Assembly: GCF_013184805.1 (NCBI RefSeq) | Contig: NZ_JAATNG010000001.1 | Coordinates: 1,674,001 to 1,738,000 of the forward strand | Origin: Pseudoruegeria sp. HB172150 | GTDB lineage: Bacteria; Pseudomonadota; Alphaproteobacteria; Rhodobacterales; Rhodobacteraceae | Length of the DNA: 64,000 nucleotides | Reading direction: 5' to 3' | Shown here: piece after piece, positions 487-63,997 of the stretch | Numbering within the stretch: position 1 is the stretch's first letter | Layout: each line of letters starts with the position of its first letter | Notes under the pieces: model-generated | Databases searched by the model: none | Seen by the model: only the letters and a program-made list of their open reading frames with translations | Told to the model about the DNA's origin: nothing | Position numbers and translations under genes: made by a program

Positions 487-489
487 CCC

Positions 490-3150: not shown

Positions 3151-3235
3151 CAGGGCTTCCTTAAAACCTGCTATGCTTGGCTCTGCGGCATCCTGCCGCG
3201 AGAATCTTTCATGCGGCCATCTGGAATTTGCAGAA

Positions 3236-3255
3236 ACATTCCTATATTGGAATGT
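3236..3255. promoter_or_regulatory. Palindromic operator, SqrR/BigR-like
   Basis: Perfect inverted repeat ACATTCC-N6-GGAATGT, 36 bases before the persulfide-dioxygenase-like gene. Its core, 3238-3253, reads ATTC-N8-GAAT, the arrangement I recall being described for the sulfide-responsive ArsR-family repressor SqrR of Rhodobacter. The downstream genes are sulfide and persulfide oxidation genes, the regulon expected for SqrR or BigR. No ArsR-family gene is in the window, so the repressor would be encoded elsewhere. Identification rests on the match to the remembered motif and on context. Confidence 0.65.
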
Positions 3256-3290
3256 GAAACGATAAAACGGCTCCTGAGGAGGACCCCGCA

Positions 3291-4175: not shown

Positions 4176-4204
4176 CCCGTACTTAGGTTCAAAAGGAAAC
4201 GCGC

Positions 4205-5881
4205 ATGGAAATCAGGCACATATCGCCGGAACTTGCAGTCAGCGGGCAGATCCTGCCCGCTGACGTGGCAGAGCTGAAGGCCAAGGGCTTCCGCTCGCTG
4301 ATCTGCAACCGTCCCGACGGCGAAGGCGCCGACCAGCCCAGCTCGGAAGAGATGCTGCGTGCCGCGGCCGAGAACGGCCTCGAATTCCGCTACATCCCCG
4401 TCACCTCCGGCAAGGTCGAGGACAGCGACGCCGAAACCTTCGGCGCCGCCCTCCGCGAACTCCCCGGACCCACCTTCGCCTATTGCCGCTCCGGCATGCG
4501 CTCCGCCACGCTGTGGTCGCTGTCACAGGCCGGAACGAAAGCCATGCCGGAAATCCTCGCCGCCTCCCAGGCGGCCGGCTACGACATGCACGGCGTCGCC
4601 AGGCGCATCGCAAACGGCGGCAAGACGCCCACCGATACCGGCGATGCGAAATTCGACATCGTCATCGTCGGCGCGGGCGCCGGCGGCATCTCCGTCGCCG
4701 CCAGCCTGCAGTCGCGCACCAACGCCTCCATCGCGCTCATCGACCCCGCCGATATCCATTATTACCAGCCCGGCTGGACAATGGTCGGCGGCGGCGTGTT
4801 CGAGGCGCAGGAAACCGCCCGGACGATGGGCTCGCTCATTCCGCGCGGCGTCCACTGGATCAAGGCCGCAGTCGCCGCCTTCGAGCCAAAGAACAACGCC
4901 ATCATCCTCGACGGCTGCCGTGTCGTGAAATACGACCGCCTCGTCGTCACGCCCGGTCTCAAGCTGAACTGGGAAGGCATCGAAGGGCTCGAGGAAACCC
5001 TTGGCCGCAACGGCGTGACCTCGAATTACCGTTACGATCTCGCGCCTTACACCTGGCAGCTCGTGCAAGACATGAAGCAGGGCCGCGCCATCTTCACGCA
5101 GCCGCCGATGCCGATCAAATGCGCCGGCGCGCCGCAGAAGGCGATGTACCTCTCCGGCGACCACTGGTTCCGGCAGGGCGTGCTCAAGGACATCGACATC
5201 CGGTTCAACAATGCCGGCGGCGTGCTGTTCGGCGTCAAGGACTACGTGCCCGCGCTCGAGAAATACATCGACAAGTACGGCGTCACGCTGAACTTCTTCC
5301 ACAACCTGACCGCCATCGACGGTCCGGGGAAGAAGGCCACCTTCAAGGTCAGCAAACCCGATACCGAGCCGACCACGGTCGAGATGGAATTCGACATGAT
5401 CCATGTCGTTCCGCCACAGACCGCGCCGGACTTCATCCGCGTGTCGCCGCTCGCCGACGCCACGGGCTGGGTCGATGTCGACCAGGCCACGCTGCGCCAC
5501 AAGACCTTCGACAATATCTGGTCGCTGGGCGACGTGATGAACGCGCCGAACGCGAAAACCGCCGCAGCCGCGCGCAAGCAGGCGCCCGTCGTGGCCGAAA
5601 ACATCGCCGCCGACATCGCCTGCAAGGCGCCCGTGGCACAATACGATGGCTACGGCTCCTGTCCGCTGACAGTGGAAAAGGGCAAGATCGTCCTAGCGGA
5701 ATTCGGCTATGGCGGCACGCTGCTGCCAAGTTTCCCGAAATTCCTGATCGACGGCACCAAGCCTACCCGCGCCGCCTGGCTGCTGAAGGAAAAGATGCTG
5801 CCGCCGATCTACTGGAAAGCCATGCTGCGCGGTCACGAATGGCTCGCGCGGCCCGAACCGCTGACTGCCAAGACGCAATAA
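4205..5881 (+). CDS. DUF442 (phosphatase/rhodanese-like) domain fused to sulfide:quinone oxidoreductase
   Basis: A two-domain protein of 558 residues. Residues 1-110 form the DUF442 (TIGR01244) domain, with the reactive loop CRSGMRS at 94-100. From about residue 150 comes an FAD-dependent sulfide:quinone oxidoreductase: dinucleotide-binding VIVGAGAGGISVAASL, then cysteines in PPMPIKCAGAPQK and DGYGSCPL that fit the two redox cysteines of eukaryote-like SQR. SQR oxidises sulfide at the membrane, passing electrons to quinone; the fused domain may take sulfane sulfur. In the Blh proteins of other bacteria DUF442 is instead joined to the MBL enzyme encoded next door. The gene lies 29 bases after its partner, with AAGGAAA before the ATG. 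Confidence 0.88.
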   Translation: MEIRHISPELAVSGQILPADVAELKAKGFRSLICNRPDGEGADQPSSEEMLRAAAENGLEFRYIPVTSGKVEDSDAETFGAALRELPGPTFAYCRSGMRSATLWSLSQAGTKAMPEILAASQAAGYDMHGVARRIANGGKTPTDTGDAKFDIVIVGAGAGGISVAASLQSRTNASIALIDPADIHYYQPGWTMVGGGVFEAQETARTMGSLIPRGVHWIKAAVAAFEPKNNAIILDGCRVVKYDRLVVTPGLKLNWEGIEGLEETLGRNGVTSNYRYDLAPYTWQLVQDMKQGRAIFTQPPMPIKCAGAPQKAMYLSGDHWFRQGVLKDIDIRFNNAGGVLFGVKDYVPALEKYIDKYGVTLNFFHNLTAIDGPGKKATFKVSKPDTEPTTVEMEFDMIHVVPPQTAPDFIRVSPLADATGWVDVDQATLRHKTFDNIWSLGDVMNAPNAKTAAAARKQAPVVAENIAADIACKAPVAQYDGYGSCPLTVEKGKIVLAEFGYGGTLLPSFPKFLIDGTKPTRAAWLLKEKMLPPIYWKAMLRGHEWLARPEPLTAKTQ

Positions 5882-5950
5882 GTGCGCTTCTGTCTCTTCC
5901 CTGTCTCAGGGCGCACTTGGATCGGGCAAGGGTCCCGCTTTGCCCGATCC
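5880..5950 (+). terminator. Two tandem hairpins between the SQR and SulP genes
   Basis: The first hairpin pairs AAGTGCGC (5880-5887) with GCGCACTT (5911-5918). The second pairs GGATCGGGCAA (5919-5929) with TTGCCCGATCC (5940-5950), a perfect 11-bp stem. Neither has a clear U-tract, so a full stop of transcription is doubtful; partial attenuation or mRNA protection of the upstream message is more likely. The second stem covers the upstream in-frame TTG at 5940, which argues for the ATG at 5970 as the SulP start. Confidence 0.55.
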
Positions 5951-5969
5951 GTTATTTGAGAGTACCGAG

Positions 5970-7706
5970 ATGACCCGCCTGTTACGCCAGTACCTGCCGA
6001 TCCTCGACTGGGGCCGGACCTACGACCGCAATGCGCTGTCGAACGACCTGATCGCGGCGGTGATCGTCACAATCATGCTGATCCCGCAATCGCTCGCCTA
6101 CGCGCTGCTGGCAGGCCTGCCGCCAGAGGCCGGTATCTACGCCTCGATCGTGCCGATCATGCTTTATGCGGTCTTCGGCACGTCGCGGGCGCTGGCGGTC
6201 GGCCCGGTGGCGGTGGTCTCGCTGCTGACCGCGTCGGCCGTGGGGCAGGTGGCGGAACAGGGGACGGCGGGCTATGCCGTGGCCGCCCTGACGCTGGCGC
6301 TGATGTCGGGCGGTTTCCTGATGGCGCTTGGCCTGTTCCGGCTCGGCTTTCTGGCGAACTTCCTCAGCCACCCGGTCATCGCCGGTTTCATCACGGCTTC
6401 GGGGATCCTGATCGCCACCAGCCAGCTCAAGCACGTGCTGGGGGTAGAGGCAGAGGGGCACACACTGGTCGAAATGGTCGGCTCCATCCTGTCGCACCTG
6501 AACCAGACCAACTGGATCACCCTGATCATCGGGGCCGCTGCCACCGGCTTCCTGTTCTGGGTCCGCAAGGGGCTGAAACCGCTTCTGCGCCGGGCCGGGC
6601 TTGGCCCACGCATGGCCGACGTGCTGACCAAGGCCGGCCCAGTCGCCGCCGTCGTCGTCACGACCCTCCTGACCTGGGGCTTCGGCCTGGACGGGCAGGG
6701 CGTCAAGATCGTCGGCAGCGTGCCGCAAAGCCTGCCGCCCCTGACCATGCCCGGTCTCGCGCCTGACCTGCTGCGCCAGCTGGCCATCCCGGCAATCCTG
6801 ATCTCGATCATCGGCTTCGTGGAATCCGTCTCGGTCGCGCAGACCCTCGCCGCGAAGAAACGGCAGCGCATAGACCCCGATCAGGAACTGATCGGCCTCG
6901 GCGCCGCCAATATCGGCGCCGCCTTCACTGGCGGCTACCCGGTGACCGGCGGCTTCGCCCGGTCCGTCGTGAACTTCGATGCGGGGGCGGAAACGCCCGC
7001 CGCCGGCGCGTTTACTGCCGTGGGCCTCGCCATCGCCGCCGTCGCGCTGACGCCGCTGGTCTACTTCCTGCCCAAGGCGACACTGGCGGCGACGATCATC
7101 GTCGCCGTGCTGTCGCTGGTCGACTTCTCGATCCTGAAAAAGACCTGGGGCTACTCTAAATCCGACTTCGCCGCCGTCGCGGCCACCATCGTCCTCACGC
7201 TGTGGCAGGGGGTGGAGATCGGCGTCGCTTCCGGCGTGCTTCTGTCCATCGGGCTGCATCTCTACAAGACGTCGCGCCCGCATGTGGCAGAGGTCGGGCT
7301 CGTTCCCGGAACCCACCATTTCCGCAACATCAACCGGCACAAGGTCGAAACCGATCCGTCGCTGCTGTCGATCCGGATCGACGAGAGCCTCTATTTCGTC
7401 AACGCGCGGTTCCTCGAGGATCTGATACAGGACCGCATCGCCGAAGGCTGCGCGGTGAAGAACGTGGTCCTGATGTGCCCGGCCGTGAACGAGGTGGATT
7501 ATTCCGCGCTGGAAAGCCTCGAGGCGATCAACCACCGCCTGAAGGATTTCGGCATCGGCTTCCACCTGTCAGAAGTGAAGGGCCCGGTGATGGACCGGCT
7601 GAAGACCTCACACTTCCTGTCCGAGCTGAACGGCAAGGTCTACCTCTCGCATTACGACGCCTGGCAGGATCTCCTGCCGCAGCCTGTGTCCCGCGCGGCG
7701 GAGTAG
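5970..7706 (+). CDS. SulP-family anion permease with C-terminal STAS domain
   Basis: Inner-membrane transporter of 578 residues from the ATG at 5970; an in-frame TTG at 5940 sits inside a hairpin and is less likely. The N-terminal VIVTIMLIPQSLAYALLAGLPP stretch and the later GGYPVTGGFARS are characteristic of SulP sulfate/bicarbonate transporters, with 10-14 hydrophobic spans. After about residue 440 follows a cytoplasmic STAS domain (SIRIDESLYFVNARF, then VVLMCPAVNEVDYSALE). Beside SQR and the persulfide dioxygenase it could export the sulfite or sulfate they form, or import anions; direction and substrate are inferred. Two hairpins precede it, so its expression may be tuned apart from SQR. 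Confidence 0.85.
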   Translation: MTRLLRQYLPILDWGRTYDRNALSNDLIAAVIVTIMLIPQSLAYALLAGLPPEAGIYASIVPIMLYAVFGTSRALAVGPVAVVSLLTASAVGQVAEQGTAGYAVAALTLALMSGGFLMALGLFRLGFLANFLSHPVIAGFITASGILIATSQLKHVLGVEAEGHTLVEMVGSILSHLNQTNWITLIIGAAATGFLFWVRKGLKPLLRRAGLGPRMADVLTKAGPVAAVVVTTLLTWGFGLDGQGVKIVGSVPQSLPPLTMPGLAPDLLRQLAIPAILISIIGFVESVSVAQTLAAKKRQRIDPDQELIGLGAANIGAAFTGGYPVTGGFARSVVNFDAGAETPAAGAFTAVGLAIAAVALTPLVYFLPKATLAATIIVAVLSLVDFSILKKTWGYSKSDFAAVAATIVLTLWQGVEIGVASGVLLSIGLHLYKTSRPHVAEVGLVPGTHHFRNINRHKVETDPSLLSIRIDESLYFVNARFLEDLIQDRIAEGCAVKNVVLMCPAVNEVDYSALESLEAINHRLKDFGIGFHLSEVKGPVMDRLKTSHFLSELNGKVYLSHYDAWQDLLPQPVSRAAE

Positions 7707-7810
7707 TACGGCAGACCGGCTCGGTGCCTGTTGTCTGAAGTGAGGACGGGTAGGCCTCGGCGTGTCAAAGTGGTGCCGGCCGGTCTCATTGGAAGCGATG
7801 TTTGCGTGAC

Positions 7811-7880
7811 CGTCCCCAAATATAGGTTAGCGCTAACACGCCTGAAATCAATGACTTGACCCCCCGTCCCCATGGGGACG
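7811..7880 (-). repeat. Dispersed 70-bp repeat, copy 1
   Basis: This 70-bp stretch recurs in opposite orientation at 54315-54382. Read on the minus strand it starts with the perfect palindrome CGTCCCCATGGGGACG (7865-7880) and ends with GGGGAC at the far side, so its ends carry the inverted hexamer GTCCCC/GGGGAC. The first 26 bases are identical in both copies, and the rest differs by scattered substitutions and one indel. It begins one base after the stop of the CMD-family gene, read in that gene's direction. No transposase or open frame is associated; a short non-autonomous or 3'-UTR repeat is the best description. Confidence 0.75.
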
Positions 7881-7881
7881 C

Positions 7882-8418
7882 TCAGATCGGGCGGCTCTCC
7901 AGCTCCGCCGCGACCCCCTCATCCACCGGCGTCTCATAGGTCATCAGAAGGTACCCCAGGGTCGAATAGAACCCCACCGTAGCCATCAGGTCGATCACCC
8001 CCAGCCGCCCGATCGCCGCCGCCAGCTCCGCCTCCTCCTCCAGGCTCAGCCGCCGCCGGTCCAGCAGGGCATCCACCGCCCCCGCGATGAGCCCGTCCTC
8101 CCCCTCCGGCTCCCCCGCGATCGCCCGGATCCTCTCGTCCGAAAACCCCAGCGCCCGCGCCCGGCTCACATGATGCGCCCACTCATAGGCCGACCCCATC
8201 CGGTGCCCGACCCGCAGGATCACCACCTCCGACCGCTCAGCCCCCAGCGCGCTGTCCTTCACCACATGCTGCCGCAGCGGCGCCCACGCCCGCACCAGCG
8301 CCGGATGATGCGCCATCGTCCTGTAGACATTCAGCGCCCCGGCAAAGCCCTCCCTCAGGTCTTCGATTTCAACGGGCCAATCGGCATCGGATAGCGGGGG
8401 GCAGGGCGTCTGAACCAT
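7882..8418 (-). CDS. Carboxymuconolactone decarboxylase (AhpD-like) family protein
   Basis: Helical cytoplasmic protein of 178 residues. The family core lies around residues 60-85, SEVVILRVGHRMGSAYEWAHHV, where AhpD-type enzymes carry ExxxCxxC-H; here the cysteines are replaced and the E..H pair remains, as in the many CMD members annotated only as peroxidase-related or gamma-carboxymuconolactone decarboxylase-like. A thiol-peroxidase role is therefore unlikely without those cysteines, and the substrate is unknown. It is convergent with SulP and ends directly at the dispersed repeat; its 5' side faces the ggt gene 275 bases away. Confidence 0.8.
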   Translation of the reverse strand: MVQTPCPPLSDADWPVEIEDLREGFAGALNVYRTMAHHPALVRAWAPLRQHVVKDSALGAERSEVVILRVGHRMGSAYEWAHHVSRARALGFSDERIRAIAGEPEGEDGLIAGAVDALLDRRRLSLEEEAELAAAIGRLGVIDLMATVGFYSTLGYLLMTYETPVDEGVAAELESRPI

Positions 8419-8693
8419 GCCATTCCCTTGCCCTCCGGCAAGGCGGCAGGCAAGTCAAACCTGCCGCCGCCACTGCGGATCTCCCGGAATTCCCCGCCGC
8501 CCAGAGCTTCGCAGCCGCTGCCCAAATTCAAAGCACCGCGCCGCCTGCCGTCGCGTTGCCGGTCGATTTTAGCTTTCGTTCCGTACCCTTGTTGGCTAGC
8601 CCTTGGCGGGCAAAGGCCATTCGCCGCCGGCGTCGATCCGCCCGGCTGTCCGCGATGCGCCAGTCAGATACCAGGCCACAACCGAGGTGCCCC

Positions 8694-10364
8694 ATGCCGA
8701 AATCCGGCCCAGCCGTCCAGTTCACCTGCGACAAGCGCCCCGCCAGCGGCACCGAAGGCGTCGTGGTCACCAACAACCCGAACGGCACCGCGGCCGGCGC
8801 CGAGATCCTCGCGGCGGGCGGAAACGCGGTGGACGCCGCCGTCGCGGCCCTGCTGGCGCTGACCGTGGCGGAACCGATGATGGTCGGCATCGCGGGCGGC
8901 GGCGTATCGCATCTCCGGCTGCCCGATGGCCGGCACGTCGTGGTGGATGCGCTGTCCACCGCACCCGCGGCGACCGGTCCGGAAACCTTCGAGCCCGTTT
9001 CCGACGATCCCGATCACTACATGGATACCCGCGACCGTCGCAACGAGGTCGGGCCCTCCGCGGTGGCGGTTCCGGGTAACCTGGCTGGCTGGTGCCTGAT
9101 GCAGGAGAAATACGGGCGGTTGCCGTTTGCCGACGTCATCGATCCGGCGATCCGCATCGCCGAGCGCGGTTTCACCGTGACGCCCTACCTGTTCGGGACG
9201 ATCCGGGAACATGCGGACGACCTGCGGAAAGATACGGAAATTGCGAGCCTTCTTTTCCAGGATGGAGAACCTGCCGCTGTAGGCAGCCGGATGGTGCGGG
9301 GCGACTACGCCGAGAGCCTACGGCTTTTTCAGAAAGACGGACCGAAAGCCCTTTACGGCGGCGCGCTCGGACAGGCGCTGGTGGATCGCATTGCGACGGG
9401 CGGTAAAGATGCGGGTTTCCTGTCTATTGAGGATCTACAGGGCTATCGAGCTATCGAGCGCGAGGCCATCTTCGGGCCCTATCGTGGCTACACCATTGTC
9501 GGCCCACCGCCGCCGGCCTCGTCTGGCGTGCACGTGACCGAGATGCTGAACATTCTCGAGGGCTACGACATCCGTGGAATGCGTTACGGGACACCGGAGA
9601 CGCTGCATCTACTGTCCGAAGTCATTCGCATTGCCTTCGAAGACCGGAACGCAGCCTCGGGCGATCCGGATTTCATAGACGTTCCGGTGGACCTTTACAC
9701 ATCTAAATCCTACGCCGCCGAAGCGCGGAGCCGGATGCGAGACGTCGGAGGCGCATTGCCGCTGCCGGAACAACTCTACGAAAGCCAGGATACGACCCAT
9801 GTGACGGTGGCCGACCGGGATGGCGGCATCGTCTCTGCCACGCACACGATCAACGGTCTTTTCGGCGCGCGGTTCATGGTGCCGGGGACCGGAATCATCC
9901 CGAATAACTATATGCTGAATTACGATCCCCGGCCGGGTAAGGCGCGGTCTGTCGCTCCGGGCAAACGGGTGCCAACATCGATGGCGCCGATGATTGTCCT
10001 GAAGGACGGGCAGCCTGCTTTTGCGCTTGGACTTCCCGGCGGTGTACGCATCTTCCCATCTGCGATGCAGGCAATCGTAAATTTGATCGATCACGGCATG
10101 TCGCTGCAGGAAGCGGTGGAAGCGCCAAGGCTTTGGACCGGCGGACACCATATCGACCTCGAGCCTGGCTATGCCGAGTTGACCGGGGCTCTGGAGGCGA
10201 TGGGTCATGAAGTGCGCGCCGCGCGCCAGGTCGGTGGCGGGATGAATGCAATCGGCTTCGGCGACGACGGGGTGATGACCGGGGCGGCCTGCTGGCGGGC
10301 CGATGGCACCGTCATGGCCATTGGCGGCGGGCTTGCCCGCAAGGGCGCACGGTTCCAGATCTGA
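8694..10364 (+). CDS. Gamma-glutamyltransferase family protein without signal peptide
   Basis: Ntn-hydrolase of 556 residues that cleaves or transfers gamma-glutamyl groups. Autoprocessing is expected before T367 in DTTHVTV, giving the catalytic N-terminal threonine of the small subunit; GLPGGVRIFPS fits the glycine-rich substrate loop. I start at the ATG at 8694 (GAGG ten bases upstream), which begins MPKSGPAVQF and has no hydrophobic signal; earlier in-frame ATGs at 8655 and 8556 add only Arg-rich sequence. A cytosolic enzyme of the YwrD-like group is therefore likely. It lies 11 bases before a 2-hydroxyacid dehydrogenase and upstream of peptide-importer genes, suggesting it processes an imported gamma-glutamyl or amide compound. 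Confidence 0.87.
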   Translation: MPKSGPAVQFTCDKRPASGTEGVVVTNNPNGTAAGAEILAAGGNAVDAAVAALLALTVAEPMMVGIAGGGVSHLRLPDGRHVVVDALSTAPAATGPETFEPVSDDPDHYMDTRDRRNEVGPSAVAVPGNLAGWCLMQEKYGRLPFADVIDPAIRIAERGFTVTPYLFGTIREHADDLRKDTEIASLLFQDGEPAAVGSRMVRGDYAESLRLFQKDGPKALYGGALGQALVDRIATGGKDAGFLSIEDLQGYRAIEREAIFGPYRGYTIVGPPPPASSGVHVTEMLNILEGYDIRGMRYGTPETLHLLSEVIRIAFEDRNAASGDPDFIDVPVDLYTSKSYAAEARSRMRDVGGALPLPEQLYESQDTTHVTVADRDGGIVSATHTINGLFGARFMVPGTGIIPNNYMLNYDPRPGKARSVAPGKRVPTSMAPMIVLKDGQPAFALGLPGGVRIFPSAMQAIVNLIDHGMSLQEAVEAPRLWTGGHHIDLEPGYAELTGALEAMGHEVRAARQVGGGMNAIGFGDDGVMTGAACWRADGTVMAIGGGLARKGARFQI

Positions 10365-10375
10365 AGGAGAAGACT

Positions 10376-11335
10376 ATGACGCGCGTGGTAATGCTGGACC
10401 CGTTGCGGCCTGAACGGGTGGAGCGCATTCGACCCTTTCTGCCGGACGGATGGGAAATTGGGGTAGCAGCATCGCGCGCGCCAGAGGATCAGCTGGCGGC
10501 TCTCCAGGGAGCGGATTTTGCCGTGACCGGCGATGTGCCCGTGTCGGCCCTGATGATGGCCGTGCCCGGCCTGAAAGCAGTGCACAAATGGGGCGTCGGT
10601 TATGACAACATTGACTGCGTAGCCGCAAAGGCGAATGGGGTCCGCGTGATGCGGACCACCGGATCGAACGCGATCGCCGTAGCGGAAACGACCCTGGGTC
10701 TGATCCTGTCGGTGAGCCGGAACATCGCGCGCGGTCATGCCGGTGTCCTGAATGGCGAATGGCTGAAAGGGACGCTCGGGCAGACGTCGTTCAGGCTGAC
10801 GGGCAAGACTGTGGGCATTATTGGACTCGGCTACATCGGCAAGGCACTGGCCAAGTTGTTGAGCGGATTTGACAGCCCCATCCTCTACACGAAACGCACA
10901 CCCCTTTCGGCAGAAGAAGAAGCGGCGCTGAATGCCCGTTTCGTACCGCTCGAGGAATTACTGGCGAATTCGGACGTGGTGACTCTGAACTGCGAGTTGA
11001 ACGACCAGACGCGCGGTATAATCAACAAACATACACTTGCGCTAATGAAGCCGACAGCTGTGCTGGTGAACGCGTCGCGTGGTGGCGTTGTGATTGAGGA
11101 GGATCTAGCTGCCGCGCTACGTGAAGGACGTCTGCTAGGCGCGGCTGCGGACGTATTCGCGATGGAGCCGATCGCTCGCGACAACCCGCTGCTGGCGTTG
11201 CCCAATATGATCATGACACCGCATATTGCCGCTGTTTCGACAGACGGATTCGCACCTTCGGTGACCCGGATGATGACGAACTTCAAATCCGTGGCTGACG
11301 GTCGCGAACCACCGGAAATGGACGTCGTTGCCTGA
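10376..11335 (+). CDS. D-isomer-specific 2-hydroxyacid dehydrogenase
   Basis: NAD-dependent oxidoreductase of 319 residues that interconverts 2-keto and D-2-hydroxy acids. The nucleotide-binding motif GKTVGIIGLGYIGKALAKLL sits in the centre, followed by NASRGGVVIEEDLAAAL and the catalytic-histidine region TPHIAAVSTDGF. The catalytic arginine fits the NCELNDQTRGII stretch. The start follows AAGGAGA by nine bases. The substrate cannot be told; phosphoglycerate dehydrogenase-like and glyoxylate/hydroxypyruvate reductase-like enzymes share these motifs. It is probably co-transcribed with the gamma-glutamyltransferase gene. Confidence 0.88.
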   Translation: MTRVVMLDPLRPERVERIRPFLPDGWEIGVAASRAPEDQLAALQGADFAVTGDVPVSALMMAVPGLKAVHKWGVGYDNIDCVAAKANGVRVMRTTGSNAIAVAETTLGLILSVSRNIARGHAGVLNGEWLKGTLGQTSFRLTGKTVGIIGLGYIGKALAKLLSGFDSPILYTKRTPLSAEEEAALNARFVPLEELLANSDVVTLNCELNDQTRGIINKHTLALMKPTAVLVNASRGGVVIEEDLAAALREGRLLGAAADVFAMEPIARDNPLLALPNMIMTPHIAAVSTDGFAPSVTRMMTNFKSVADGREPPEMDVVA

Positions 11336-11502
11336 CGCGAGGGCACTGATAATGCCCTTTCGCTCTTCGCCCGGCAATCGGACATGCTGCAGAATATATG
11401 GTGAAAAAACAGGCTTAGCCGCTCGCTTGGCGCTGTTTGCCAGCCGGTCGGATTTACACTACCGTCCCTTAGAATAGCGTAACGATTACAAGATGATACC
11501 GC

Positions 11503-56719: not shown

Positions 56720-57053
56720 AATAACTTCCTTCCAATTGACCGGTCGATCCGTCCCGCGTTTCGTCCGGTCTGGATCATGTATTGCGGGACCGCCGCCATC
56801 CTGTACGCAGCCCATGAATGCACCGCGATGCCAGCAAGAAAGATGCGCGAATTTCGCGCGAATTCTGCAATTTGGTGCCAATCGGAGGTGAATTTTCCCG
56901 GATCAGGCATACAAAACAAATGCATGCATGGCTGAAATGATGGAAAGGATGACGCGGAATCGTTAAGCTTGCGTTAATTGTGAATGCCTCAACGTAAGAC
57001 CTGTTGAGCACCGTTTCTTATCTGTGGTCCGCTCGTGTCAGGAGGGCACGCAG
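56720..57053. other. Divergent intergenic region with palindrome
   Basis: This 334-base region must drive the small exported protein leftwards and the regulator rightwards. It contains the 15-bp palindrome GCGCGAA-T-TTCGCGC at 56845-56859 in its centre. No consensus sigma-70 promoter is evident. Confidence 0.55.
56845..56859. promoter_or_regulatory. Palindromic operator candidate
   Basis: GCGCGAA-T-TTCGCGC, a perfect 15-bp inverted repeat midway between the divergent genes. Its position suits a regulator that acts on both, possibly the SARP-type protein, although SARPs usually bind direct repeats. Confidence 0.45.
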
Positions 57054-58676
57054 TTGTCACACGGAAGCAACATTAGGATCAAGCTTGCCGGAAATTTTCG
57101 GCTCGAAGCCGACGGGGTCGAGATCAGGATCACCGGCGCGCGTCATCGTGCGTTGCTCGCAATCCTGGCGGCGTCGGATCAGCAGAAGAAAACGCGGGAC
57201 TATCTGAAAGCCACGCTCTGGCCGCGCAGCGACGAAGCCCAGGCGGCCGGAAGCCTGCGGGCGACACTGGCCGCGCTGCGACGCGATCTGGGCGACGTGG
57301 GAGACTTCTTACGCGCGGATCGTACTTATGTCTGGCTTGAAGACATGGTGGACTCCGTCGAGATGCCGGTCGGGGGGATGGAGTTCTTCGAGGATGCGCC
57401 GACCACGATCGGATCGCATTTCGATGACTGGCTGCAGACGGAGAGGGCCGGACGGAGGCAACTTACCTCGAACCTGTCCGGGATGGTTCCGGAAGTGGTA
57501 CGCCAACTTTCGATCGGCATCGTGCCCGTTCGTTCGCAGGTAGACGATCCGCACTGTGCGTTGCTTGCTTCCCGGATACTCGACTATGTGGCCGAAGGTC
57601 TGCGCGCCTACGATGTCGTCGACCTTTACGATTTCAGGCACTCGGAGCCGGCCGACAGAGACGGGGGCATAGCCACCATCCCGGACCCGAAGATGCTGGT
57701 CGAGCTGCAAGTCATCAAGGTGGGCACCATGGCCCAGATGAGCGTGTCGGTCTACGCGGCACCCAGCCGACAGCTTTTGTGGAACCGGTCGCTTGCTGCT
57801 GATCAGGCGGGGCCATTCCTGTTCACACCGCAGGAAGCGATCGATTTTGCCAACCACACTGTGGATGCGATCCTGATCGCCTGTTTCCGGAATCAGGAAT
57901 TGAGGAACGATCAGCGATCCAACTCGCCCGCGTCGATGATTGGCGTGTTGCACAGGCTCCTTGGAATGTCGCGGGCCGGGCAGCGTCAAGTGCGGAACTA
58001 CCTGTCGACGCGGGCTGATTTGCAGGGTTCCGCGATGTCCAGCGCCTGCTATGCCCTGTCCATCGTGAATACGATGGGCGAAGATGCCGTGCGATCCGCC
58101 GACATAGAAGAAGCGGAGGAGCATGCCATCAGGGCCCGCGCCCTCGATCCTCAGAACCCCATAGTGCTGGCGCTGGTTGGCCATGTTTATGGTTTCGGAC
58201 TGCGGGAATTCACGCTCGGGGCGGAAATGCTGACACTTGCGCGCAAGTCGGCGCCGAACCTTGCCATCTGCTGGGACTTTTCGGCGATGAATGCGGTCTA
58301 CCGCGAAGATGTCGAGACCGCCCTGAAATATAGTCAGATTGCCAGCAGATTGGGGCAGTTCAGCCCTTATCGCCCGCTTTTCCAATCGTCACTGGCGATC
58401 ACGTCGACCCTAAGCGGCGACCATGAAACGGCCGTTCGCGTGTCGCAATCGGTCCTGTCGCGCATGCCGGATTTTCTGGCCGTCATGCGCCATTGCAGCG
58501 CCAGCCTGTCCAGTCTGGGCCGGCACGACGATGCGCTGCGCATGATCGGCCGTGTCCGCGAGATCGATCAGGGCTTCGGCCCCGAAGGCATTTTAGATCC
58601 GACCTATCCTTTGCCCAGCACGGTAAGCCGCGAGGCCATCGGCCAGACGTTCCGCGTGCTGGGCCTTAATCGCTGA
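57054..58676 (+). CDS. SARP-type transcriptional regulator with TPR-like region
   Basis: A 540-residue regulator. The start is TTG at 57054, decided by AGGAGGG seven bases upstream; a GTG at 57024 lacks such a site. The N-terminal 90 residues are an OmpR-like winged helix (IKLAGNFRLEADGVEI, GARHRALLAILAAS, then SLRATLAALRRDLGD). A middle domain begins near residue 155 (IGIVPVRSQVDDPHCALL), resembling the sensor-like region found in CadC- and cyclase-associated regulators, followed by helical TPR-like repeats to the end. SARP proteins activate neighbouring gene clusters; the two exported hydrolases directly downstream are the obvious targets. Confidence 0.85.
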   Translation: MSHGSNIRIKLAGNFRLEADGVEIRITGARHRALLAILAASDQQKKTRDYLKATLWPRSDEAQAAGSLRATLAALRRDLGDVGDFLRADRTYVWLEDMVDSVEMPVGGMEFFEDAPTTIGSHFDDWLQTERAGRRQLTSNLSGMVPEVVRQLSIGIVPVRSQVDDPHCALLASRILDYVAEGLRAYDVVDLYDFRHSEPADRDGGIATIPDPKMLVELQVIKVGTMAQMSVSVYAAPSRQLLWNRSLAADQAGPFLFTPQEAIDFANHTVDAILIACFRNQELRNDQRSNSPASMIGVLHRLLGMSRAGQRQVRNYLSTRADLQGSAMSSACYALSIVNTMGEDAVRSADIEEAEEHAIRARALDPQNPIVLALVGHVYGFGLREFTLGAEMLTLARKSAPNLAICWDFSAMNAVYREDVETALKYSQIASRLGQFSPYRPLFQSSLAITSTLSGDHETAVRVSQSVLSRMPDFLAVMRHCSASLSSLGRHDDALRMIGRVREIDQGFGPEGILDPTYPLPSTVSREAIGQTFRVLGLNR

Positions 58677-58716
58677 TCCTGACTGACCTTTTCGGAATTA
58701 TTTTTGGGAGGCTCAA

Positions 58717-61413
58717 ATGATACTTAACAGACGTTCCTTCGTGGCCGGCGCGTCGAGCGCCACCTTCCTCGCCAATGCTGTTCCCGGTCTTGCGCAACCG
58801 ACGGATTGCCTTACGTTTCCGGAGACGAACGATCTGGCGTCATTGCTGCGCGGCATCATCAATCGCGCACAGGACCGGTTCGTTCCGGGAATCACCGGTG
58901 GATGCTACCAGACCCAAGATGGCGAGACGCTGGACCTGGCCGGTCTCTATTTCAGCCGTACGTCGACCTACCTTGTTTCGACCTCGGTCGATGCCATTTC
59001 AACCGTGCTGGTCACCGGCGATGCGGTGCCGCCCGATGCGATTTTTCCCGAGCGGCTTACCGTCTGCGAGAGCGACCCAGGGACGTTCCCGGCTGGTGTC
59101 TTCGCTGCGGAAAGCGTGCGCGGCGTCGGACGCGGGCGGGGGCGTGGCAGGGGCCGGGGACGCGGACGCGGCAGGGGGCGTGGCCGGGGACGGGGCCGGT
59201 CGACCAACCGCGAAGGCGGTCAACAGGCCGTGCTGGATTTCCTGTTCGAGGAGGAGATCGCTTATTATCGGCAGCGTATCAGCGAGGTGGTCCCGGCGAT
59301 TGTCGAACTTCTGCGGGCACCCGGCGCCCGCCCGCCCTATTACCTGTCCGACCCCGATTACGTTGGCACCATTGCGAATAACGAAATCGAGCTGCTGCTT
59401 CAGATGCAGAAAAGCAAAGAGCGCCGCCGCCGCCAACGCGAGATCAATGTCGAGATCGGGGATATCGCAACACCATTCCTGAACGCGATCTCGGATTTCG
59501 CCGGGCCGCCGGGCGCTGTGCTTCGCCTGATCAACGTGATGGACATGGCCGGCTACGTCATCGCCTATCATTTCAAGCGCCGGTTCGGCCGGTTGCGTCC
59601 GAACGTATTCGACCCGCGGATTGAACCGGCCATCGAGGTGCCGACGCATTCCTCGTACCCCAGCGCCCACGCGACGCAGACCCACCTGATCGCCCATGGC
59701 CTGGCAGAGGTCTACGAAGACTCCGCCCTTGTCGGACGGCTCTTCGATATCGCGGAACGGATCAGCGTGAACCGGGAATATGCCGGCGTCCACTATGCCT
59801 CCGACACAGAAGCCGGCGTGCTGATCGCGCGGGCGGCCTTCCCGATAGTGCGGCTGGTCGCCGACGAGATCATTACCGACGCCGTCACGGAACTGAACGC
59901 GGATGCCGAGGCCAACTGCCATCTCCTCGGCCGGCTGTCCGGTATCGCCGCAGCGCCGGTCATGGGGGACCCGACCAGCGGGGCCTTTGCCTGGAACCTC
60001 GTCGCGCTGGGGGCAGATACGCTGCCGCCCGAGGTTAAGGGTGCGGGCACGGTTGTCGGGATAATCGACACCGCCGTGGATACCGAGCACCCGGCAATTG
60101 CGGCTGCGATCGAGGGCGAGTTCGTGAACCTTGACTACCCGATGCCGCAGGACGATCCGTGGTGCATGTCCTCGAAGGGGATCGGCCACGGAACGGCGAT
60201 GGCCGGCCTGATCGCCGGGCGGATGGATGGCAGGACGTTCGGCGTGGCGCCGGAGGCCAAGGTCTTGCCCGTGCGCGCGGCGAACCTTGCGCGGGACGAT
60301 CACGAGGACCGGTTCGAACTGGGTGTACAGGTGCTGGCGCTGGCGCTGGATGGCCACCGCAAGGACACCTCCGGCAATTGCGCACCGGAAACCTCGGTTG
60401 CCGCAAAGGTTGCGGCGGTCCTGTTGTCGCTCGATTTTCCGCGACCTGACAAGGAAGACGCCGGCTATCTGACTGCCGCAAGACTGGAAGCCGCACGTGC
60501 GGCGGAGGCGGCCGGCAACACACGCCGCCCCGGTCCCGGCGCCATCGTCGACGCCTTCATAGAAGAGGGGCTTCCTGTCTGCGACCCGTTCATCGTCGCG
60601 ATCCTTGTGGCACAGATTTTCGTTCCGGTGGTCATTCCTTCCGGCAACCGTGGCGGCAATCGCCTGGCCTACCCGGCGTCGTTCGAGGACTACCTCCCGG
60701 TCCTGGAGCTTATGGCCGATCCCGACGGCCGGCGCGCCGTCCTGGATCAATTGCGCCGCATGGCGCGCCAGTTCAACATGATCGTCAACGAAAGTGAGCT
60801 TGAGGCTCGTTTCAATGCCTTCGCCGACGGGCCCATGGCCGCGCTGCTCGCCACCGGGCTTGCAGCAACCGGCGAGGCGGAGAACACGGCGGAAGAGCCC
60901 GACCTGTCCGATGCCGAGCGGCGCGATGCCTTTCGCAACACCGGGATCATCGTGATCGGAAGCGCGAATTACGAAGGTGCGCCGGACACGATTGACCGGA
61001 CGATGTTCAGCCGGCCGGTCTACAGCCAATTCGGACCCGGCCTTTGTGCTGTTGCACCGTCGGACCGGGCCGACAATCCTCCGTTCCGCTGCGACTGGTA
61101 CGGCGAAAAGCTACCGGAGCACGCGTTCGGGCAGGATACGCTGCCGGTAGCGACAGCGGATATCGCTGGCCCCGGCGGGTTCGCGGCCGATCCGCTGGCG
61201 CTGTTCAGCCATCCGGGCCAGCCCTTCGGATTCGGCGGAACTTCCGCTGCGGCGGCGCAGGTCGCGGGCGTGCTGGCCCTTCTTTCAGGGCGCGCCAGCG
61301 GCTTTCCCGGTTCCGCCGACCTGCGCAGGCAGCTGATCGCCCTGTGCAATCCCAAAGGTCCGGAATACTCGGTCGAAACCGGCTACGGCGCCGTCGATCT
61401 TACAAAGCTCTGA
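58717..61413 (+). CDS. Exported PAP2/haloperoxidase-like domain fused to a subtilisin-like protease
   Basis: An 898-residue protein with an unusual architecture. The N-terminus MILNRRSFVAGASSATFLA is a twin-arginine-like signal (cleavage near GLAQ). Residues 138-161 are a run of twelve Gly-Arg pairs. From about 165 to 385 lies a PAP2/vanadium-haloperoxidase-type domain with all three motifs: K287-x6-R294-P295, P315-S-A-H318 and R353-x5-H359-x3-D363. From about 440 comes an S8 protease: D451 (IIDTAVD), H491 (GIGHGTAMAG), oxyanion N644 (IPSGNRGGN) and nucleophile S843 (GGTSAAAAQ). Both active sites look complete. Long inserts lie between the S8 motifs. It is 40 bases after the regulator and 10 before the trypsin-like gene. 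Substrate and partner are unknown. Confidence 0.9.
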   Translation: MILNRRSFVAGASSATFLANAVPGLAQPTDCLTFPETNDLASLLRGIINRAQDRFVPGITGGCYQTQDGETLDLAGLYFSRTSTYLVSTSVDAISTVLVTGDAVPPDAIFPERLTVCESDPGTFPAGVFAAESVRGVGRGRGRGRGRGRGRGRGRGRGRGRSTNREGGQQAVLDFLFEEEIAYYRQRISEVVPAIVELLRAPGARPPYYLSDPDYVGTIANNEIELLLQMQKSKERRRRQREINVEIGDIATPFLNAISDFAGPPGAVLRLINVMDMAGYVIAYHFKRRFGRLRPNVFDPRIEPAIEVPTHSSYPSAHATQTHLIAHGLAEVYEDSALVGRLFDIAERISVNREYAGVHYASDTEAGVLIARAAFPIVRLVADEIITDAVTELNADAEANCHLLGRLSGIAAAPVMGDPTSGAFAWNLVALGADTLPPEVKGAGTVVGIIDTAVDTEHPAIAAAIEGEFVNLDYPMPQDDPWCMSSKGIGHGTAMAGLIAGRMDGRTFGVAPEAKVLPVRAANLARDDHEDRFELGVQVLALALDGHRKDTSGNCAPETSVAAKVAAVLLSLDFPRPDKEDAGYLTAARLEAARAAEAAGNTRRPGPGAIVDAFIEEGLPVCDPFIVAILVAQIFVPVVIPSGNRGGNRLAYPASFEDYLPVLELMADPDGRRAVLDQLRRMARQFNMIVNESELEARFNAFADGPMAALLATGLAATGEAENTAEEPDLSDAERRDAFRNTGIIVIGSANYEGAPDTIDRTMFSRPVYSQFGPGLCAVAPSDRADNPPFRCDWYGEKLPEHAFGQDTLPVATADIAGPGGFAADPLALFSHPGQPFGFGGTSAAAAQVAGVLALLSGRASGFPGSADLRRQLIALCNPKGPEYSVETGYGAVDLTKL
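59128..59199 (+). repeat. Gly-Arg repeat region within the PAP2-subtilase gene
   Basis: Twelve consecutive Gly-Arg codon pairs. The arginine codons vary (CGC, CGG, CGT, AGG) and so do the glycine codons, so the tract is not a simple recent slippage product; the protein repeat has been kept while the DNA has drifted. Confidence 0.9.
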
Positions 61414-61423
61414 GGGGGCAGAG

Positions 61424-62974
61424 ATGCAAAAGACGTTACACATTTTGTGCGGCTTCCTGGTGCTGGTCGCGATCGCACCGTCCGCATCCGCGCAATCCGG
61501 GCCGAAGGTCCTGTACCTGACGCCCTATGCAAACACCGACAGCCAGATTTCCGAGGCGCTAGCAGGCAACGCCAAGACGTTGCAGCTGGACAAGCTGGGC
61601 ACGCTGGAATGGGTCGAATCCTTCAACCTGGCAGAGCCGGACCGGCCCGTATTGCCGGTAGAGCAGTCCGAGCGGATCACGGGCAGGCTCGCCACCCTGC
61701 GGGAACAGGACTGGGTGGCGGTCGAGGACCTTGCCGTTTCGAATGGCGCACCCGTCCGGATCCTGTTCCGTGACGGAGCCGCGTTTACCGCGCGCGTGGA
61801 ACAGGGCGAACTGGTGGTCACGCAAAGCATATCGGAAATCGGGCTTCCACAGGACACGTCGCGGTTCCGCGATCTCTTTGGCGACCAGTCCGCCGTGGGA
61901 ATCCTGGAACTGCCGGGCAACTTTCGCGACGAGGCGTCGAACACCGGTGACATCATCATCGTGCGGAACCTGGGAGTGGAAATTGGCCCGGACGAGCCCA
62001 CGGAGCGCCGGTTGGAAGTGGCGGCATCACCCGTCCCGGTCGATTGCGGCGCTGCGAACGGGGATGAGACGACGCATTGCGCTCTCTACGCCGCCCGCCT
62101 GATGTCGACGCACCGGGGAACGATCTGCACCGGCACCCTGATCTCGGACAACCATCTTTTGACGGCGGCGCATTGCGTCTGCGACGAGGTCGCCAATGGC
62201 ATATTGTCTGACGAGATCACCGCATCAATCGGAATTCCAGGGTATTGGGCAGGAATATCCCTCGATCCGGAAGGGGTGCATTTCTTCAATCACTCCGGAT
62301 CGGATATCTGCGCTGACAGCGGGCTTCCGCTGGAGTACCGCCAGTCCAACGGGGATCTGGCGATCCTTACGCTGGAAGATGGAAGCCTCTTATCGGCGGT
62401 CCAGCGGCTGCGGGACCTGGGCGTCGAGTATGAAACGGCAGGGCGCGCGCGGGCCGCGCTTGCTTCGGAGGAAACCGGGCCGAGTATCTGGCAGACCGAC
62501 GCGGGGATCGCAGGGAATGTCTTCGTCACCTTCGGTTTCGGTGTCGGACTCGACGGGCTGGCAGGAAACAAGCGGGCCATGAAATACACGTTCCGCCGCC
62601 TCACTGAGTGCCTGTATGGCTCTGAAACCTCGGACATCGGATGCGACGGCTTACAGGAAGGGATTTTCCACGACGAGTCTCTGGGCCTGTGCGCAGGGGA
62701 CAGCGGCAGCGGCATGTTCAAATGGGCCGACGGAAGCCGGGACGGGTTCGGAAAATGGGTGCTCATGGGGGTTGTGTCCGGCAGTCTCAACCCGCTCAAT
62801 TGCCATGAGGTGTATACGGATACGCCCCTGGAGAACCAGTACGAACGCAACATCGTCCGCGTCGATACCGATCTTGTCCTAGACTGGATCGAAGGAATTG
62901 CCGGACCCGATCAGATCTGGCGAACAGCGGGCCTGATGACGCCTCCATTCAGTGTTGCCGGTGACGGAAACTGA
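61424..62974 (+). CDS. Exported trypsin-like serine protease (S1 family)
   Basis: A 516-residue secreted protease. A Sec signal, MQKTLHILCGFLVLVAIAP with cleavage after ASAQ, is followed by an uncharacterised N-terminal domain of about 185 residues and then an S1 chymotrypsin fold: H250 (LLTAAHCV), D311 (SNGDLAIL) and S427 (CAGDSGSG). Cysteines around CTGTL, AAHCVC and LNCHE suggest disulfides. The N-terminal region could be an inhibitory or substrate-binding part. It is 10 bases from the fusion protease gene; the two proteases may act on each other or on the same target. Confidence 0.9.
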   Translation: MQKTLHILCGFLVLVAIAPSASAQSGPKVLYLTPYANTDSQISEALAGNAKTLQLDKLGTLEWVESFNLAEPDRPVLPVEQSERITGRLATLREQDWVAVEDLAVSNGAPVRILFRDGAAFTARVEQGELVVTQSISEIGLPQDTSRFRDLFGDQSAVGILELPGNFRDEASNTGDIIIVRNLGVEIGPDEPTERRLEVAASPVPVDCGAANGDETTHCALYAARLMSTHRGTICTGTLISDNHLLTAAHCVCDEVANGILSDEITASIGIPGYWAGISLDPEGVHFFNHSGSDICADSGLPLEYRQSNGDLAILTLEDGSLLSAVQRLRDLGVEYETAGRARAALASEETGPSIWQTDAGIAGNVFVTFGFGVGLDGLAGNKRAMKYTFRRLTECLYGSETSDIGCDGLQEGIFHDESLGLCAGDSGSGMFKWADGSRDGFGKWVLMGVVSGSLNPLNCHEVYTDTPLENQYERNIVRVDTDLVLDWIEGIAGPDQIWRTAGLMTPPFSVAGDGN

Positions 62975-63139
62975 TCGCGGAGGTCCGGGAAGCCAACACC
63001 CGTTAGATTGGTCGGGGGAGTTTGCGAACGAGGGCGAGCCCTGAATCCTGGGATTATCCTGTTCGTTCAGTGGTTTTGAGTATGGGCTACTTCAGGGGCC
63101 GGGACCGTTGCGCGGCCGCGTCGCCGCAGTCTGCGCAGG

Positions 63140-63997
63140 CTATCCCGCCGTCTCGCCCTCGGGCCTGTAGACCCTTGCGCGCTGGCGGTTGTCGGGGTCG
63201 AGCGACGGGATCGCCGACAGCAGGCACTTGGTGTACTCGTGCTGCGGATCGGCGAAAAGCTGGCGGGTCGGGGCCTGTTCCATGATCTTGCCGTGGTAGA
63301 GTACGGTGACGAAGTCGCAGACATGGGCGACGACCGACAGGTCGTGGCTGATGAACAGGAATGTCAGGTCAAGATCGCGCTGCAGGGTCTTGAGAAGGTT
63401 CAGGATATCGGCCTGGATCGAGACGTCCAGCGCGGCCACGGATTCGTCGGCGACGACGAATTTCGGGCCCGTCACCAGCGCCCGCGCGATGGAGATCCGC
63501 TGTCTCTGACCGCCGGAGAAGGCGTGCGGGTAGCGGCGCAGGTGTTCGAGGTTCAGGCGGCACTTGGCGGCGATCTCGCGGACGCGGGCGTCGGTCTCGG
63601 CGCGCGTTTTCGTCAGGCCCATGACTTCCAGCGGTTCGGCGATGATGTCGCGGACGGTCATCCGCGGGCTGAGCGCGGCATAGGGGTCCTGAAAGATGAG
63701 CTGCGCGCGCCTGCGGTAGTCGCGCAGTTCCGCCTTGCCGATGCTGCCGATGTCGTAATCGACCTCGCCATCATTGTAGCGGATCGTGCCCTCGGTGATC
63801 GGCGCGGCGCGCAGCATGGCGCGGCCCAGCGTGGTCTTGCCGGAGCCGGATTCGCCGACGAGGCCGTAGAAGGAGCCCTTGGGGATCTCCAGCGAGACGT
63901 GGTCGATGGCGCGCAGCATCGGCGGCTGGCCGATCAGCCGGCGGCCGAGCGGGAACAGGATCGAGACGTCGTCGACCTTGATCAGCGGTTCGGCCAT
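63140..63997 (-). CDS. Peptide ABC transporter ATP-binding protein (DppF/OppF-like)
   Basis: ATPase of 285 residues from the ATG at 63997; a GTG three bases earlier, at the very edge of the window, is also possible. Walker A is GESGSGKTT near residue 49, the signature [15 protein letters not shown] near residue 161, Walker B FVVADESVAALD, and the H-loop ISHDLSVVAHVCD. The oligopeptide-type C-terminal region QHEYTKCLLSAIPSLDPDNR is complete. The rest of the transporter lies beyond the right edge. It is convergent with the trypsin-like protease gene. Confidence 0.92.
   Translation of the reverse strand: MAEPLIKVDDVSILFPLGRRLIGQPPMLRAIDHVSLEIPKGSFYGLVGESGSGKTTLGRAMLRAAPITEGTIRYNDGEVDYDIGSIGKAELRDYRRRAQLIFQDPYAALSPRMTVRDIIAEPLEVMGLTKTRAETDARVREIAAKCRLNLEHLRRYPHAFSGGQRQRISIARALVTGPKFVVADESVAALDVSIQADILNLLKTLQRDLDLTFLFISHDLSVVAHVCDFVTVLYHGKIMEQAPTRQLFADPQHEYTKCLLSAIPSLDPDNRQRARVYRPEGETAG

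Follow-up and report, generated by a model that had tools for sequence, protein, structure and literature searches.

Organization of the fusion gene

We studied a 64,000-nucleotide stretch of DNA from Pseudoruegeria sp. HB172150 (this whole stretch is hereafter called the window), in which a single intact open reading frame (ORF), starting with ATG, encodes an 898-residue protein with a (Gly-Arg)12 array, a PAP2 domain and a peptidase domain of family S8, the subtilases (Table 1). We regard it as nearly certain that two enzyme genes of a conserved cassette have naturally fused in this ORF, and that the cassette itself is real (see below). An earlier note on the window had described the PAP2 domain, the Gly-Arg tract and the subtilase as parts of one chain, and this description stands: the frame is open, Pfam matches both domains (the best S8 stretch being residues 442-523), and the phosphatase residues that it named (K287, R294, P295, P315-S316-A317-H318, R353, H359 and D363) are all in place, as are the four named S8 residues (Table 1), an Asp, a His, an Asn and a Ser in the context of that peptidase family. 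The three PAP2 active-site motifs of the window protein were also detected by regular expression in 97 of 101 relatives. A search of the organism's own genome with the fusion protein gave one match at E <=0.001.

The AlphaFold2 model of the window protein, built from 17 sequences, had a mean predicted local distance difference test score (pLDDT) of 60.5 and a predicted template modelling score (pTM) of 0.50. Its PAP2 part was fairly confident (pLDDT by tens of residues mostly 71-93, with two blocks at 56 and 59), and residues 22-177, tract included, had no fold. The S8 part was patchy: it had good helices and strands, yet stretches next to active-site residues, among them 452-492 and 783-839, scored below 50. 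Foldseek placed the acid phosphatase 7f17 (E 1.1e-6) as the nearest solved fold to the modelled PAP2 part, listed haloperoxidases late (the iodoperoxidase 4usz came 44th, E 8.8e-3), and returned Tk-subtilisin (E 4.6e-4), MycP1, Kex2 and PatA for the patchily modelled S8 part. The profile of the PAP2 family searched against the PDB also matched 7f17 best (E 5.3e-26), with the bromoperoxidase 1qi9 further down (E 1.4e-11) but ahead of PhoN 2akc (E 6.7e-10). The label haloperoxidase-like, given to the domain earlier, is thus not favoured, since the acid phosphatase 7f17/7f18 leads both the sequence-profile list and the list of folds resembling the model.

Table 1 Predicted genes and protein features of the cassette in the window
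Feature	Position	Strand	Basis
Regulator of 550 aa (GTG start) with N-terminal winged helix, TolB-like central part and TPR solenoid at the C-terminus	57024..58676	+	Pfam, AlphaFold2, Foldseek
Fused array-PAP2-S8 protein	58717..61413	+	ORF reading, Pfam, residue check
Candidate signal-like N-terminal stretch with twin Arg, residues 1-27	58717..58797	+	By eye; L070 start similar
(Gly-Arg)12 array, residues 138-161	59128..59199	+	Residue check; pLDDT ~30, no predicted fold
PAP2 domain, Pfam residues 278-378; modelled helical domain ~178-395	59548..59850	+	Pfam E 1.1e-7
S8 peptidase domain, residues 442-898	60040..61410	+	Pfam E 5.2e-17; D451, H491, N644, S843; Foldseek
Trypsin-like protein, 516 aa	61424..62974	+	Pfam Trypsin E 5.4e-7 on short stretch

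Relatives were compared in two sets. The first comprised 101 non-redundant PAP2 ORFs, the window included, from loci read in relatives; it draws on part of the family-search matches, with rows of identical C-terminal 150 residues merged and rows below 40 bits dropped. The second scan took the best 80 of 491 loci, partly overlapping the first set and including, among the named organisms, Salipiger, Roseivivax, Mameliella, Sagittula and Bradyrhizobium. A profile search (E <=1e-10) of the sampled family genomes matched a PAP2 relative in 133 of 394, nine of these matches being weaker than 1e-30 and possibly generic PAP2 proteins. A first scan of genome contigs with the window protein as query found no relative.

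Three further genomes also have PAP2 and S8 fused in a single ORF, each with its own tract: L069 (860 aa, unit GR, 56% identity to the window protein), L070 (926 aa, unit TH, 32%) and L071 (699 aa, unit TK, 37%). An artificial join of two genes, which the earlier note had considered, is ruled out by these three genomes, and the fusion is shared by relatives. Fusions amounted to four of the 101 PAP2 ORFs of the first set (window included) and to none of the 80 loci of the second scan; separate genes in a cassette are thus the usual state, and fusion a rare one. A tblastn search in plasmids gave 105 records, and many of the listed rows were adjacent genes annotated as "phosphatase PAP2 family protein" and "S8 family serine peptidase"; in Palleronia the two genes overlap by 4 bases. 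By eye, the fused S8 domains start with W-[N/H/S]-L, matching the L-W-H-L with which separate S8 proteins begin. The fusion first noticed in the window is therefore explained by the cassette as a pair of joined operon neighbours. It had been remarked that the two activities have no known joint reaction, which is fair, yet they are operon-linked (see the counts below).

A conserved cassette of regulator, array-bearing PAP2 enzyme and peptidase

Neighbours were counted within 2.5 kb of the PAP2 gene in 73 non-redundant loci of at least 8 kb, with profiles built partly from the same loci. The regulator was present in 71 loci, the array in 69 and a peptidase, nearby or in the same ORF, in 69 (S8 in 63 and C1-like in six). 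In the second scan, 79 of the 80 loci had the array, 78 the regulator and 78 an S8 peptidase. Five of the fused or partner proteins were scanned with Pfam, which confirmed S8 in each. The loci with a papain-like C1 gene in the place of S8 included L109, L113, L116 and L123 (units GGLN, DGAV, NGGM and NGGL, respectively), with Peptidase_C1 above the Pfam cut-off in L116 and L123 and just below it in L109 and L113. The output side of the regulator is exchanged as well: in the plasmid loci L184, L187 (regulator from 3022) and L188 (regulator 3047-4828) a cyclase-like front replaces the winged helix (Guanylate_cyc by Pfam in L184 and L188, by eye in L187), and the TolB/TPR half is kept in all three, where it matches positions 162-559 of the regulator profile at E 6e-77 to 3e-79. 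Because both the output and the peptidase class are swapped, the constant parts are the TPR sensor, the array on the PAP2 enzyme and, usually, a peptidase. From these comparisons, the cassette is a putative TPR sensor with swappable output, an array-bearing enzyme of predicted PAP2 fold, and a peptidase that is S8 or sometimes C1-like.

Further genes accompany the cassette in some loci. The gene order in Rhizobium is SARP-type regulator, PAP2, S8, HEXXH peptide-modification protein and ThiF. In the R. ruizarguesonis plasmid pRlX4 (L019, 8375-11111) the array-PAP2 and S8 genes are followed by a peptide beta-hydroxylase of the aKG-HExxH type (TIGR04267, E 2e-20), then by a ThiF-like adenylyltransferase and a gene of 65 aa; hydroxylation could act on the (Asn-Lys) array of this locus. 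As separate observations, a Palleronia plasmid (L021, 7326-10444) carries heme peroxidase and C1 peptidase genes behind the cassette, and a histone-deacetylase-like gene (4464-5531) lies behind the array-PAP2 gene of L125, whose unit is SNA.

A family-wide array with a variable unit

A perfect or near-perfect tandem repeat with a unit of 2-6 residues was found N-terminal of the PAP2 domain in 94 of the 101 relatives of the first set. The second scan, which had 24 arrays in common with the first set and one locus (L230) that starts at a contig edge and has none, added 55 new tracts. There were 67 distinct units in the first 94 tracts and 85 in the 149 tracts of both sets, e.g., GR, NK, GNQ, GWE, NSF and PQG. 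The Gly-Arg tract of the window, though present as described in the earlier note, is therefore not peculiar to this protein: it represents one form of an array that runs through the family with differing units. Separate PAP2 proteins bearing the array in relatives have ~270-530 aa, and the mean copy number was alike for units of two, three and four residues (10.7, 9.5 and 8.2, respectively). The repeat detector found repeats in 69 of 73 PAP2 ORFs and, in the same loci, in none of 68 S8, in one of 78 regulator and in four of 363 other ORFs, a difference beyond chance.

Most of the array-less members of the first set have particular features. L015 and L029 had low scores (46 and 82) and are probably not members, L114 has an ORF that starts at the contig end, L128 is a 165-aa ORF with a stop inside the search match, and L118 and L121 carry imperfect LHKx repeats that were counted as array-less; L111 (score 125) is a true exception. 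In scans of the class and the phylum, the array was present in all 27 members scoring at least 141 bits (nine of them already in the first set), and 26 of these had the regulator ORF in the short flank. Among 25 weaker PAP2 proteins (50-95 bits) only L174 had an array, and a regulator too, while two more had Ala runs; this difference between strong and weak relatives rules out the array as a generic property of PAP2 proteins. An array-PAP2 ORF, with unit GGA and behind a cyclase-type regulator, also occurs beyond the Alphaproteobacteria, in the betaproteobacterium Paraburkholderia phymatum.

The first-set tracts differ widely in charge: 30 of the 94 were net positive, 52 uncharged, eight net negative and four zwitterionic. 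Their composition was 28% Gly, 14% Asn and 9% Gln, with nearly no Leu and no Cys, and Pro made up 0.3% vs 6.8% elsewhere. Proline-bearing arrays (PQG and GGPG) did occur in the second set; the (Pro-Gln-Gly) arrays of L222, L223 and L226 have one PQT interruption inside each. A further ORF in L107 (7251-9001) has ~17 copies of Asp-Pro-Val.

Peptide repeats retained, DNA repeats avoided

The 12 units of the window array are encoded by six different hexamers, and the earlier proposal, drawn from such varied codons, that the tract is maintained was confirmed across the family. Adjacent copies in the 94 first-set tracts differed by 1548 synonymous vs 5 nonsynonymous codon changes, and those in the 55 new tracts by 1089 vs 14, where the nonsynonymous count is biased low by a detector that demands amino-acid identity. 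Independent of that bias, shuffles of synonymous codons gave the same picture. The same codon was used in adjacent copies at 690 of 2265 positions of the first set, with 1017 expected from the codon use of each locus (z -14.5) and 884.6 +- 19.5 expected from shuffles within tracts, of which 0/1000 reached 690. The new tracts replicated this result (370 of 1459 shared codons vs 538.7 +- 15.6; 0/1000 shuffles), and the rest of the array genes showed no deficit (969 of 2300 vs 947.4 +- 22.3). Alternation of codons, e.g., CAG CAA CAG CAA, is frequent in the tracts. Since adjacent copies share codons less often than by chance, the repeat is kept in the peptide and avoided in the DNA, where it seems to be removed, whether by instability or by selection.

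The unit itself changes between species. Pairs of first-set proteins shared the same unit in 6/6 cases at >=80% PAP2 identity, in 16/40 at 70-79%, in 13/86 at 60-69%, in 16/272 at 50-59%, in 7/1084 at 40-49% and in 0/2883 below 40%. Congeners of Puniceibacterium have GVE, GVQ or GAQ, changed through the copies together; Salipiger has GHE, GGQ and GAQ, and Bradyrhizobium SGD (one copy SAD) and SSD. The unit was stable within the sampled Mameliella (4 loci) and Roseivivax (3 loci). Copy number drifts with the unit kept, as in Phaeobacter (NSF, six or five copies), Salipiger bermudensis (GHE, ~8 or 9) and two Cohaesibacter assemblies, L237 and L238 (GGH, 8 vs 17). The array is thus maintained at the protein level, with its unit changing through the copies together between species. 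Protein repeats usually accompany DNA repeats and drift apart; the behaviour of this array is the reverse, i.e., a near-perfect peptide repeat, an avoided DNA repeat and a unit exchanged between species. These traits imply strong selection for identical copies of something, whichever that something is; it might be a peptide code, a ligand for periodic docking or a homotypic adhesive.

Neighbouring genes and surroundings in the window

The regulator gene ends 40 bp ahead of the fusion gene and the trypsin-like gene starts 10 bp behind it, all three on the plus strand. Pfam detected TPR_19 (E 1.5e-5) in the regulator and, under the cut-off, Trans_reg_C (E 0.027), with no match to BTAD; its AlphaFold2 model had a mean pLDDT of 86, with mostly 90-98 in the TPR part, and Foldseek matched it to a consensus TPR, CadC and the TPR of OGT. 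The signal-like N-terminus suggests that the fusion protein is possibly exported. Homologues of the trypsin-like gene lie directly behind the fusions of L069 and L070 (Pfam), and L071 has none; within 2.5 kb the gene occurred in three of the 73 long loci, i.e., the window, L069 and L070, from which its profile was made. L033 had one weak trypsin-like match ~3 kb off (E 3e-4). A scan of 56900-63200 for promoters and terminators gave only chance numbers, and the three window genes scanned for modifying enzymes of ribosomally synthesized and post-translationally modified peptides had no match. The GC (guanine plus cytosine) content of the window drops near 10 kb, from ~65% (1-10000) to ~60% (10001-60000), close to a tRNA-like call at 11289-11386, a tRNA-Asp with the odd anticodon atc.

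A proposed mechanism and its alternatives

Our reading, which we put forward tentatively, is that the array is a built-in substrate of the partner peptidase and the signal read by the TPR sensor. The peptidase, once active, would cut between the units, shedding many copies of one short peptide (Gly-Arg in the window protein) and freeing or relocating the PAP2 enzyme. The TPR domain would recognize the array, either uncut or as released peptide, and respond with transcription or a cyclic-nucleotide output. Identical copies would be needed because the unit itself would be the message or the fitted ligand, and a species-specific unit would amount to a private code. In the window, array, phosphatase and protease would sit on one chain, possibly exported, and the adjoining trypsin-like protein could cut after Arg, provided that its specificity is that of trypsin. 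Such a mechanism would account for the identical copies, the free choice of unit and its concerted change, and also for the usual presence of a peptidase of exchangeable class and a TPR half that stays constant when its output is exchanged. It would also account for the genes of peptide modification next to the Rhizobium cassette, which fit the array as a peptide substrate. Proline blocks many proteases, and we count its scarcity in the tracts in favour of cleavage, with the same reserve as the whole proposal.

The S8 partners were compared with the units. In favour of the proposal, clusters of S8 similarity broadly match the chemical classes of unit: one threshold gave a 17-member cluster with only Q-, E- or D-bearing units, and another gave a cluster of mostly aromatic or aliphatic units and one of [N/S]-[R/K] units. 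The best partial Mantel correlation with the unit was that of S8 in the full set (0.300), of PAP2 within period 2 (0.323) and of the regulator within period 3 (r 0.233, p 0.001). The cluster pattern is suggestive, but what we claim is co-inheritance of S8 and unit, and coevolution beyond it is not established.

Several points weigh against cleavage by the partner peptidase and reading by the sensor. The NSQ/NAE and GQ units fall outside the cluster of Q-, E- and D-bearing units. By parsimony, in counts made without a shuffled control, the unit class changes 11 times on the S8 tree, 11 on the PAP2 tree and 12 on the regulator tree; because it changes about equally often on the three, the match of S8 with the unit may be plain co-inheritance. 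Partial correlations shrank when alignment columns were matched and were then weak (S8 0.244, PAP2 0.184, regulator N-terminus 0.136 and TPR -0.018), and no pattern was found in the specificity pocket (S1) of the 30 of 70 S8 proteins that could be read. Crude S8 motifs were incomplete across these 70 (GTS in 60, HG[T/S] in 59 and the Asp pattern in 46), which may mean either that some S8 partners depart from the type or that the patterns are too narrow. The (PQG) arrays do contain proline, GGGA-like arrays have no obvious cleavage site, and the loci with a C1-like peptidase keep a catalytic PAP2 enzyme whose role the mechanism leaves unexplained.

In the first of two main alternatives, the identical periodic strands could join PAP2 enzymes into a fibre or condensate in which phosphatase and protease would act. 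Any periodic sequence would then do, which explains the free choice of unit, and the near-perfect periodicity of 85 units in 149 tracts, the Gly-, Asn- and Gln-rich composition nearly devoid of Pro and Leu and without Cys, and the match of some Gly-x-y arrays to the collagen family (L028, E 4.9e-9) are all consistent with such homotypic self-assembly. Dipeptides charged at every second residue (NR, NK, SR and GR), however, should repel each other, Gly-less arrays exclude collagen as a general answer, the window tract is modelled at a pLDDT of ~30 (AlphaFold2 being no assembly test), and the nearly constant peptidase neighbour is left unexplained; we consider self-assembly somewhat unlikely. 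A little less probable still is the second, in which the intact array would lie in the likewise periodic TPR groove of the regulator and keep it off, with no release of peptide. The regulator accompanies the PAP2 gene in more long loci (71 vs 63) than S8 does, its TPR half is retained when the output domain is swapped, and its distance tracks the unit best within period 3 (see above). The column-matched value of the TPR part in the full set, as given above, is nevertheless slightly negative; within period 3 the regulator N-terminus (0.152) does no worse than the TPR part (0.102), and the signal-like N-terminus could separate the window protein from the soluble regulator across the membrane.

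We regard it as improbable that the array is a hypervariable bait in a conflict system, where parasites or rivals would target the exposed tail of the PAP2 protein, units would be replaced fast and the peptidase would be the executioner. The turnover of units between congeners and the plasmid copies (105 records) agree with it. Of the PADLOC models, a generic subtilase model was matched by the S8 part of the window protein (E 3.9e-14) and E1-E2 models by the ThiF-like neighbour of the Rhizobium cassette (best E 2.8e-11), with weak matches of the L025 S8 to IetS (E 1.4e-4) and of the trypsin-like protein to Avs1b (E 1.2e-3). PADLOC found no complete known anti-phage system among the scanned components, though; neither of the two scanned regulators matched a model, and the single separate PAP2 protein scanned reached only E 0.024. 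The alignment of one subfamily had no relative in viral contigs, one PAP2 query gave one weak phage match, and the unit is stable within the sampled Mameliella and Roseivivax. The earlier note had supposed that the basic tract beside the phosphatase site binds polyanions such as nucleic acid, polyphosphate or lipid A; the (GR)12 of the window and the net positive tracts would suit this, but the uncharged majority and the net negative tracts occur in proteins with the same kinds of domains and neighbours, so that polyanion binding is rejected as a general function in the family and seems very improbable altogether. A flexible linker grown by neutral replication slippage, with no need for the repeat, is hardly credible: the copy number does vary, as in Phaeobacter and Cohaesibacter, but slippage predicts identical DNA copies and adjacent copies avoid identical codons in both sets.

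Returning to the array as substrate and signal, the cassette would perhaps represent a new class of signalling cassette, with a private repeated peptide code, scrambled in its codons against slippage, a peptidase that releases or reads the unit and a TPR sensor that responds. It is found on plasmids of Rhizobium and Phaeobacter amenable to laboratory work.

Comparison with known systems

The PAP2 enzyme shares the motifs K-x6-RP, PSxH and R-x5-H-x3-D with acid phosphatases (7f17/7f18, the Escherichia blattae acid phosphatase, PhoC and PhoN). Even 7f17, its nearest fold and best profile match, is only ~23% identical, and to our knowledge the known PAP2 acid phosphatases are stand-alone enzymes without an array, a TPR regulator or a peptidase partner. 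The peptidase has the Asp/His/Asn/Ser set and the fold matches of S8 subtilases such as Kex2, PatA, the MycP mycosins and the lanthipeptide protease, several of which mature peptides; here, unlike in those, S8 is fused to, or lies beside, an array-bearing PAP2 enzyme, and the T7SS_mycosin model scores 79.5, far under its cut-off of 278.75. The regulator resembles SARP and CadC-like regulators in its predicted winged-helix front and TolB/TPR-like sensory part. The plasmid record annotates one relative as a SARP family regulator, and the homologue in L028 matched the AfsR N-terminus far under the cut-off (E 2.8e-7). It differs from them in the cyclase-like front of L184, L187 and L188 and in its tie to the PAP2-array gene. 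Some arrays, e.g., GNQ and PQG, share Gly-x-y units with collagen-like bacterial proteins; identity with these was rejected, since many arrays lack Gly or have a period of 2, 4, 5 or 6, and the window unit is a dipeptide.

The closest parallel is with the RRNPPA systems, in which peptides that extracellular proteases have matured, in some cases out of multi-copy propeptides, are bound by a TPR receptor (PMC11343458). Rap-Phr, with its TPR receptor and protease-matured multi-copy propeptide, serves here as an analogy, and Rap-Phr, PlcR and NprR are alike to the cassette in that the gene of a TPR protein adjoins one with peptide units (PMC11343458). In the window, however, the array is on an 898-aa enzyme instead of a small exported propeptide gene, the hosts are Proteobacteria and the unit has 2-6 residues; we therefore treat RRNPPA as a parallel and not as membership, the receptor role of the TPR protein being putative. 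Searches of openly licensed papers, judged by titles and abstract openings, found no description of such a cassette or array, a result that argues only weakly for its absence from the literature. Each component family is known; no kind of system that we could name matches their combination or the way the array behaves. The family-wide array together with the cassette points to an undescribed sensing system.

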